Assembly (NCBI GenBank): GCA_900095095.1
Contig: FMBT01000311.1
Coordinates: forward strand, 186,001 to 250,000
Reading direction: 5' to 3'
From: Fragilariopsis cylindrus CCMP1102
Lineage: Eukaryota; Bacillariophyta; Bacillariophyceae; Bacillariales; Bacillariaceae
DNA: 64,000 nucleotides
Under the pieces are notes generated by a model, which had not been told where the DNA came from, searched no databases, and was given only the letters and a program-made list of their open reading frames with translations. The position numbers were made by a program, and so were the translations under genes. Every line of letters begins with the position of its first letter. The first letter of the stretch is position 1. This document shows positions 60,336 through 64,000 of this stretch, in pieces.

Positions 60336-63300
60336 TTAAAATGTAATGCTATCCGAATCACCTTCTTTGCCATCGCAAGCTTCAGAGTTCCCGTTCTTCT
60401 TCTCGCAAGCTTTAGAGCTCCCATTCGTCTTCATCAACAGATCAAATAGCACGAGCGAAGATATCGATCTCATCGTATTTGCTAATTCAATGCTTTCTTC
60501 TAAAAGTTTTTTAACGATTTCCCAACTTTCGTGGATGGAAAAAGAGCACCGCTCGTGTAGAGATGGATCACCCGTCGGTATGGAACCTTGATTATGTCCA
60601 CTCAAAAGTGTGTTTTCGGTTGCTAAGAGTGTTATAGCAGCAATCGGTTCTATTGACGGCAATGTTGACTTGTCCGTAAGCAACCGGAATGTTACTTCAC
60701 TCAGGGTAGATCGCGTAGCGTTGGAGACGCACATAGCAACGAGTTGACTTAGTCGATTCGAATCGTACATTGAACTGCGTGGGGTTAGCTGCAAGAGTGC
60801 TACCGCTTGACTAAGGCTTCCAGGATCGATTTTAGCACCCATTTTGATGTCTATGGACCAAATATCTTCCGCAAACTTTTGTATAGCAGCATCTAGGAGG
60901 GTCGTGTCTCGAAAGCTTCTTCCAAGTTTGATAAATTCATAAATATTTTCCTTATTCATGACCCACTTGCAGTAAAATTCGGTCACTTTCTGTACGATTG
61001 CTGTGTTTTCTAGCTTTTCCGCGAGACTGTGTAACTATAAAAAACAAAGAAAGGATGAAAACAATGATGACGGTTTAGCTTTTCCTTCTCATTGGCTTTC
61101 GATTCAAACTACAATTCCAAACTACACATACACAAAGTACTTACGGTGTACGCTTTTTCTGTATCCAAATCGAACTCGACATCAGCGTAAATGAAGTCAA
61201 GAATCATTGGAAAAACCGCAGCTTGTCTCTTGTTCAACCTCAGCTGGTTTCGGTTAGCGGAGCTATTATATTTGAAGATATTTGCAAAGTAATTAGACTT
61301 CTTCGGTCCAACAGCAAGAACTCGGCGATGGACGTGATATACGGCGCTTTGAGTGATATCGTCACATATCGCTTCGACGGTCCAGTCACTAAAACTTTCT
61401 GATGGATGTTGTCTCCAACTGAGTCCTGAATTATTTTGTACATCTGCGTCCTTCATAGTAACATCTATGGTAGATGGTATCGTACTATTGCTACTGTTGC
61501 TGTTACTACTACTACCTCCAGCATCGACTGTGACGACATGACCATTACTTGCAGTACTAGTAGGAGCCCCTATCATATTAATGTCTGTCCTTTCCCTGGC
61601 CATAATGGCCTCAAGGATCACGTCGATTCCAGAGTCCTTTCGCTGGTCAGCAGACACAGCGTCGGAAACGCCAGCGTGATGAGAGGCTACACCGGACCAT
61701 GATTTAGTGTCAGCAGTATCTTGGTCGTTGCCCTTTGGCTCAATCGTTGTTGCCTTGACATTATAGTCACCGCCGTTATTCACGTAAAGCTTGGCCCTTC
61801 TCGGTGTTCCGGTGCCTTTAATTTTAATCCGTGTGATCGATGCCAACAGGTCTTTCCTCCCTTTAACGAAATAAGGATGACGGTATGCACCCCTATTTGG
61901 TCCTGTATCAACTCGCTGTCATCGAGCGTCGAGTATGATGAGAAAAGTACAATACGGAGTGGAGGAGGGGAGAGAGAGAGAGGCGTGAGAAATACCACAT
62001 TGAAAAGTATACCTCCAAAACATTGAATAGCAACAGCAACAGCAACGGCAACGGCAACAACAGTAACGCAATACTTACGATAAAGCCGTACAAGTTAAGC
62101 TGACGTTGAAAACTACAATAGTCATTGGGAAGAAAGATGGAAGCGAAAGAACAAACGCGTTCGTGAGTAAGGAGAATTTATGATCAGCGATCAACAAATT
62201 AGACACGCCATCCGCAGTATTTCACATTTGATACGTTGATTTTCATTTGTTGTTGTTTTCAAGTTATTTCGAACCACCTACCTCTTGTATTTCGTTTGTT
62301 TAAAAAACATTGACATAACCTCTCTTACAAAATTATCAGTATCATGGACCCTGAAGCACGTTTCACCAGGCATCCAGCTAACCATGTTAGAAAATCCATC
62401 AACTTCACACCGTTCCAACATTTCGAATAGTTTCCAAGGGAATTGGAATTCCTTGTGTAAGATTACATTATTCTTATCGAGCTCGGGACTTCTTGGTGTA
62501 GAGTTTGGAGTAAAATGTGAAGTACCACACGTATTAGAAGAACTTTCACCACTAGTGGAATGGTTTTTGATATCTTCTCCTGCACTGATTGTAACCTGCC
62601 TAGCAATGCCACCACCACTACCAACAGAAGAAGAGTGATTCATCCCAGCTACTGTTGCCACCATCCCTAACGTATGACCAGCCTCTACCGACAGAGTGGC
62701 TAAAACAGCCTCACGCTTTTGTTGATTTCGAAGTTGCTGAAGGGAAAACTGTTGTGCTCGTAATTGTTGTAATTGTTGATGTTCCTGTCTATATTTTTCT
62801 ATTTGTAGACGCTGCGAGGTACTATCGGCCATCATTTGGAAATTGGAGATATTCGTAATAGCCGCATCAATATTATGTTGACGTTCGGCGATCATAGCGG
62901 CGGTTGCTTGGTGATGACCAGCTAGCAGCCTTGAACTTGCTGCTGTAGATGTAGGTACCATCGGTAAAACAACGTTAGATAACTCATTCGATGAAATTGA
63001 TACATTCGTTGGTACATTCAAAGTATCATAGGACATATTATCAGAGTTGATGTTGTTATTGCTCTTAACATTATTTCCAACATCATCAACGATAGACTTG
63101 TTGTTTCTACCAGTTTCACCTTTAGTAATTAAACCTGATCGGGCCAGTTTTTCAATATAATCGGTACTATCCTCTTGATCCTTATCACGAGCAGCACATC
63201 TTGCAATGAGCTGACACATAGTTCGTTGCCCTCGTCGGAAAAACTTGTGCTTGTAACCGCCTTTACAGTTTCCATGTTGAATGCGGTTAAAGCCGTACAA

Positions 63301-64000
63301 ATTGAGTTGACGTTGAAACTGTTCACAGAAAAACAAAGACGAAAGAGAAGAAAGGAATGTATGAGTAAATTATCTGAATCATAAATATGATGCCATATTC
63401 TTCTATTCATATGAAATTGTATTATACAATTACTATTACAATTACAGTTACAATTACAATTACAATTACACATAACGCAACGTACACTCTTATACTTTGT
63501 TTGTTTAAAGAATCTTCGCATGATATGATCCACGAAAACTTCCGCGTTATGTACACGGAATGCTTGTCCATCATCGACCCATGAAACAACATCACCATAC
63601 CCTTCCGAAAATGATCGATCTAACATATCATGTAACTTCCATGGAAATTGAAATGCATTCGGATTCAATTGTCTTGCATTTTGTTCATGTTGTCCTTGTC
63701 CTTGTTCATGTTGTGCTTCGTTATGTTGTTTTTGAGGGGTAGGTAATGGAAGATTATGTTGATTCCTCAATGCGGCAACAACATCACCCTCGTCAATACC
63801 AGCACCGATACCACCACTATTCCCTGCTCCTCTTACTATCGCCGACGCTAATTGTTGTTGATGATGTTGAAGTTGCACCTGTAACTGTTGTTGTTGTTGT
63901 TGTTGTGCCTGTAATACACGATTTGCTGTAGCTGTAGCTGCAGCAACGGCTGTGGAAGAAGAATTGTAATGATTGTTATGATTGTGATTATTCGTTGTTG
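60336..64000 (-). CDS. Double-HSF-domain plus BTB/POZ protein, four introns, 5' partial
   Basis: Exons (5' to 3'): >64000-63486, 63318-62282, 62112-62079, 61915-61145, 61034-60336; about 1,017 residues in the window, with the frame open at the edge. Introns are 167, 169, 163 and 110 nt, all GT-AG (donors GTACGT, GTAGGT, GTAAGT, GTAAGT), phases 0, 2, 0, 0. Exon 1 has a Gln-rich N-terminus, then HSF domain 1 (FQFPWKLHDMLD, VDHIMRRFFKQTKYKS); exon 2 continues FQRQLNLYGFNRIQHGNCKG, YKHKFFRRGQ. A Gln-rich linker leads to HSF domain 2 (FPWKLFEMLE, FFKQTKYK at 62448-62282), finished by a 34-nt microexon (SFQRQLNLYGFI) and exon 4 (RVDTGPNRGAYRHPYFVKGR). After a Ser/Asn linker a BTB domain starts near 61387 (DWTVEAICDD, VHRRVLAVGPKKSNYFANIF) and a BACK-like helical tail (EFYCKWVMNKENIYEFIKLG) ends the protein. 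Exon 4 lacks an ATG at its apparent start (TTG), so a separate BTB gene is unlikely. Acts presumably in the nucleus as a transcription factor/adaptor. Frame of every join checked by hand. Confidence 0.85.

Follow-up and report, generated by a model that had tools for sequence, protein, structure and literature searches.

The window – the whole 64,000-nucleotide stretch of Fragilariopsis cylindrus contig C78 that was analysed – ends within a minus-strand gene whose exons join into a single frame of 1,124 residues with two HSF DNA-binding domains (HSF 1 and HSF 2) and a BTB domain. The first ATG after the upstream stop lies at window position 64319 (C78:250319; locus L009), 319 bases beyond the window edge, and the stop codon is at 60338-60336. 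A preliminary description had placed the gene at 60336..64000, where the upper limit is the edge of the window and not the end of the gene. A convergent plus-strand gene at about 57.7-60.1 kb of the window resembles, by eye, a dihydroxy-acid dehydratase, and its last frame ends approximately 200 bases from the HSF-BTB stop codon. Two to three telomere-like CCCTAA units are visible by eye in locus L009, some 0.95 kb upstream of the start codon at 64319. The features of the gene, in the order of transcription, are as follows.

63486..64000, minus strand: exon 1, in-window part; low-complexity N-terminus and first part of HSF domain 1 (63650-63486); extends to the ATG at 64319
63319..63485, minus strand: intron 1, 167 bp, GTACGT..ACAG; interrupts HSF domain 1 between KYKS and FQRQ (phase 0)
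62282..63318, minus strand: exon 2; remainder of HSF domain 1 (63318-63190), 248-aa linker and first part of HSF domain 2 (62445-62282); stop-free
62113..62281, minus strand: intron 2, 169 bp, GTAGGT..TGTAG; interrupts HSF domain 2 at the residue matching intron 1, one nucleotide earlier (between AG and T)
62079..62112, minus strand: exon 3, a 34-nt microexon; encodes FQRQLNLYGFI, the recognition-helix region of HSF domain 2
61916..62078, minus strand: intron 3, 163 bp, GTAAGT..ACAG; within HSF domain 2
61145..61915, minus strand: exon 4; last third of HSF domain 2 (61915-61820), linker (61819-61424) and about three quarters of BTB (Pfam match from 61360); stop-free
61035..61144, minus strand: intron 4, 110 bp, GTAAGT..ATAG; within the BTB domain
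60336..61034, minus strand: exon 5; BTB end (Pfam match to 60966), BACK-like helical region (to about 60423) and stop codon 60338-60336

All four junctions proposed earlier (63486/63318, 62282/62112, 62079/61915 and 61145/61034) are present with GT..AG introns. The frame is open across the exons so bordered and the domains lie within it, and we infer that these exons are spliced together. The microexon is 34 nt, not a multiple of three, so that skipping it would shift the frame; such skipping (62079-62112, minus strand) could toggle between full-length and truncated forms.

Domains and coding signal along the joined frame

The Pfam scan of the joined protein that the preliminary description had proposed places two HSF DNA-binding domains and one BTB domain above cut-off. 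HSF_DNA-bind (PF00447) matches in two stretches (E 1.6e-43, 147.7 bits against a cut-off of 22), and BTB (PF00651) matches over profile positions 19-108 of 110 (E 1.7e-9, 38.3 bits against a cut-off of 20.5); four further matches fall below cut-off, including RNA_bind (E 0.00069) over part of HSF 1. Together with the 1,124-aa joined frame, these matches bear out the earlier claim that two HSF domains and BTB share one minus-strand frame. Exon 4, as likewise described, opens with the end of HSF 2 and reaches BTB with no in-frame stop between them. Because HSF 2 spans exons 2, 3 and 4 and exon 4 continues stop-free into BTB, a complete HSF 2 is predicted to lead into BTB, barring transcription or splicing cut short.

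Coding signal was scored with a hexamer model whose training set comprised 56 uncurated stop-to-stop frames, each 250 aa or longer, taken from other loci (73,836 nt, HSF and BTB genes included). The joined frame beats the other five in every one of the seven segments; for the HSF2-BTB linker, one of them, it scores 0.141 as against -0.259 to -0.889 in the others. This linker was compared with 3,000 random 396-nt stretches drawn from the first 60 kb of the window: 6.3% lack a stop, 2.7% reach its score and 2.5% do both; since the window has 32 stop-to-stop frames of at least 230 aa, this null contains real genes. When 40-codon windows are slid along the protein, another forward frame scores higher in 4 of 55; these begin at residues 261, 281, 641 and 661, and the one from 661 runs from the end of HSF 2 into the linker. 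Exon structure and coding signal give good support to a single predicted gene that carries two HSF domains and a BTB/BACK-like tail.

The two HSF domains and their genomic setting

Both domains carry the recognition-helix motif SF.RQLN.YGF as SFQRQLNLYGF, aligned to solved HSFs, with best PDB matches over this region of 1.2e-10 and 1.7e-13 for the two domains. From this retained motif we infer that both bind TTC/GAA units, the units that HSFs of the oomycete Phytophthora infestans, also a stramenopile, are described as binding in gapped or ungapped form in the available part of PMC11267843. No three-unit HSE, sought in two 2-nt-gapped forms with at most one mismatch, occurs within 1.5 kb upstream of the gene, where there is one widely spaced pair of units in the same direction.

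HSF 1 and HSF 2 are 49% identical to each other and up to 53% (HSF 1) and 50% (HSF 2) identical to other HSFs. They share the intron site KYKS|FQRQ, offset by one nucleotide; in two other intron-split HSF genes, compared by eye, introns seem to be placed elsewhere. In a tree of 33 domains – those in the retrieved loci that match over more than 80 profile positions, with identical rows dropped, and thus a part of the HSF matches in the genome – the two are not sisters, and HSF 1 groups with L050 with weak support (87/11); 10 of the 30 inner branches are open. A recent internal duplication of the HSF domain was considered and appears doubtful given the 49% identity, the several other HSFs that are equally close or closer, and the separate placement in the tree, the shared intron site notwithstanding.

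Genome-wide, there are 128 HSF and 38 BTB matches, counts that were taken exon by exon and are lower bounds, with many near-identical contig pairs; silicon transporter matches, the mark of a diatom genome, number 27 (best 1.1e-226). Comparing the match lists by eye, which could miss weak or split domains, we find C78 to be the sole place where HSF and BTB lie within 10 kb of each other on one strand. Next comes C563, whose same-strand pair is approximately 27 kb apart; a pair on C26 is 5.4 kb apart on opposite strands. Tandem HSF domains alone are not unusual in this genome: all three places chosen for several HSF matches in one frame, whose fetched stretches were scanned for HSF only, have them in single open frames, with three domains on C701 (L060) and two each on C55 (L061) and C265 (L059). 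These resemble the HSF-BTB gene in having several HSF domains per open frame and differ from it in that C701 and C55 have no BTB match and that on C265 lies about 370 kb away.

Pattern searches of viral and prokaryotic collections gave eight stretches for the BTB region among viral contigs and 111 for HSF 2 among genome contigs, none of them confirmed as relatives; collections of this make-up say little about relatives outside this genome.

The BTB/BACK-like module

The BTB region matches seven other places in the genome, on six other contigs: two in one frame on C613, a near-identical pair on C90 and C530, and one each on C91, C66 and C265. The six distinct relatives are 24-35% identical to the BTB of the HSF-BTB gene, and their consensus includes LSWR.P..S.SDW, VYHVHR, LAVGP and LDF.Y, with eight invariant columns. 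No HSF match is listed near these relatives (L022-L028) or near other BTB matches (L012-L019), at loci reaching about 1.5 kb beyond the match, so BTB usually occurs without HSF in this genome. On C613 (L022/L023), a 1,541-aa open frame contains two BTB/BACK-like modules of this family and then a tail resembling, by eye, a coiled coil.

A PDB search with the single BTB-region sequence finds just one chain, at E 0.7, indicating a diverged BTB. A seven-row profile of the six relatives and the HSF-BTB sequence instead finds BTB-BACK chains, with matches that span both regions, the best at 9e-11 over profile positions 31-222. These are poxvirus A55 (9e-11), KBTBD2 (5.4e-7), KBTBD4, KLHL3, SPOP and KLHL11; among BTB-zinc-finger proteins, ZBTB8A matches at 2.4e-4, and BCL6 (0.11) and Kaiso (0.15) are not significant. 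Of the BTB/POZ-BACK tail in the preliminary description, the BTB part is confirmed by Pfam, whereas no BACK model is among the Pfam matches of the joined protein and the BACK-like region is recognised through the local-relative profile only. A structure model of exon 5 alone (mean pLDDT 42) was of no use.

A predicted multidomain regulator and its alternatives

We consider it probable, with room for doubt, that this single gene encodes a multidomain transcription regulator. Its chain would run from a low-complexity N-terminus through HSF 1, a long linker, HSF 2 and a second linker to BTB and a BACK-like helical tail. The BTB module would make the protein self-associate, hold a partner, or both; with two HSF domains per chain, one complex built on a BTB dimer could hold four HSF domains, and may present two or more HSF-domain pairs to clustered sites. 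As to origin, a BTB/BACK-like gene from the genome's own family probably came into frame with an HSF gene.

BTB modules of animal proteins commonly dimerise, and, judged from the family, BTB-mediated dimerisation is plausible here. Self-association could also come from elsewhere than BTB, the crude heptad count being high in an N-terminal segment (residues 70-97, exon 1, L009; reached by 2 of 200 shuffles). These residues, a possible amphipathic helix, precede HSF domain 1, whereas in canonical HSFs such a region follows the DNA-binding domain. The count is not above shuffles in linker 1 (123/200), linker 2 (48/200) or the C-terminal segment (37/200), and a coiled coil after HSF 1, where the linker is glutamine- and leucine-rich by eye, finds no backing in this crude count. 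Canonical HSFs (HSF1, HSF2 and HSF4; PDB 5d8k, 6j6v) have the DNA-binding domain and recognition-helix motif in common with this protein, which differs in its two HSF domains, its BTB/BACK-like tail and the want of a trimerisation region after the HSF domains in the crude heptad count. Kelp HSFs are reported, in the available part of PMC12899012, without a specific HR-A/B region. A broader proposal, which we regard as tentative and rather doubtful, is that there is a conserved diatom class in which two HSF domains per chain and BTB self-association replace the coiled-coil trimer, giving even-numbered HSF arrays with their own site grammar and not the classical three.

A special case of partner holding would be that the fusion is a DNA-targeted ubiquitin-ligase adaptor, with BTB-BACK binding Cul3 and the HSF domains bringing the ligase to chromatin or to HSF-bound partners. 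KBTBD2, KLHL3, KLHL11 and SPOP, all matched by the BTB profile, are Cul3 adaptors, and the genome has 12 matches to cullins as a class. Cul3 is contacted through the phi-x-E motif of BTB, and where KBTBD2 has L-S-E the HSF-BTB protein has S-S-A, an alanine replacing the acidic residue; this alignment was made by eye and is uncertain because the motif sits in a variable loop. The Pfam BTB match also begins only at model position 19, leaving the first 18 uncovered. Cullins are encoded and the contact motif appears not to be kept, and Cul3 recruitment, while possible, is less supported than self-association or partner holding via BTB; we judge the adaptor unlikely. The interpretation in the preliminary description accordingly divides: the single gene uniting two HSF domains with a BTB/BACK-like tail stands on exon structure and coding signal, and its suggestion of Cul3 recruitment is weakened by the alanine.

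Two overlapping transcription units might instead share exon 4, with a tandem-HSF mRNA cut short, through early polyadenylation or through alternative splicing, and a separate BTB mRNA starting from an exon-4 ATG. The earlier statement that no usable ATG separates HSF 2 from BTB does not hold, since in-frame ATGs at 61603, 61576 and 61456 precede BTB and would allow a BTB-only product, and BTB usually occurs without HSF in this genome, no HSF match being listed at L022-L028 or L012-L019. Yet no in-frame stop intervenes between HSF 2 and BTB, and the score over the entire linker indicates coding in the joined frame; we think this arrangement distinctly unlikely. Equally improbable is a chimera of recent origin, perhaps without function, that is confined to this strain or assembly: one copy was found, while many HSF matches occur in near-identical contig pairs, and the viral and prokaryotic collections searched yielded no ortholog, but there is no damage to the splice borders, to either HSF motif or to any part of the 1,124-aa frame, and HSF 1 and HSF 2 both keep the domain at 49% identity, which fits constraint on the HSF part and is silent on the age of the BTB join.

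A single gene for a multidomain regulator, the reading we prefer, has partial counterparts among known proteins. ZBTB proteins join BTB to a DNA-binding part; here that part is HSF, it is N-terminal of BTB, and a BACK-like tail lies behind. BTB-BACK proteins (KBTBD2, KBTBD4, KLHL3, KLHL11 and poxvirus A55) share BTB and a BACK-like helical region, whereas the present protein has HSF domains at its N-terminus and no kelch model among its Pfam matches. HSF is joined to PAS in haptophytes (PMC4827209) and to bZIP in kelp (PMC12899012), and these fusions, in the available parts of both papers, are like HSF-BTB in combining HSF with a second dimerising or sensing domain; there PAS or bZIP takes the place of BTB, and tandem HSF is not mentioned. 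No HSF-BTB protein appeared by title or abstract opening among the papers listed in the literature searches, a scope that takes in few subscription papers, and none is named in the available parts of PMC4827209, PMC7596299, PMC7335047, PMC12062965, PMC6261938, PMC11267843, PMC4222949 and PMC12899012. HSF-BTB appears to be an unusual combination of known parts; the comparison covered literature and structures, and protein domain databases may already list the architecture.

To our knowledge, the role of most diatom HSFs is unclear. The family is strongly expanded in diatoms, according to the available part of PMC4827209, and HSF-BTB would add BTB to PAS and bZIP as HSF partner domains reported in the accessible portions of PMC4827209 and PMC12899012. 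An HSF with a nameable self-association module would make it possible to test directly if some diatom HSFs act as non-trimers.
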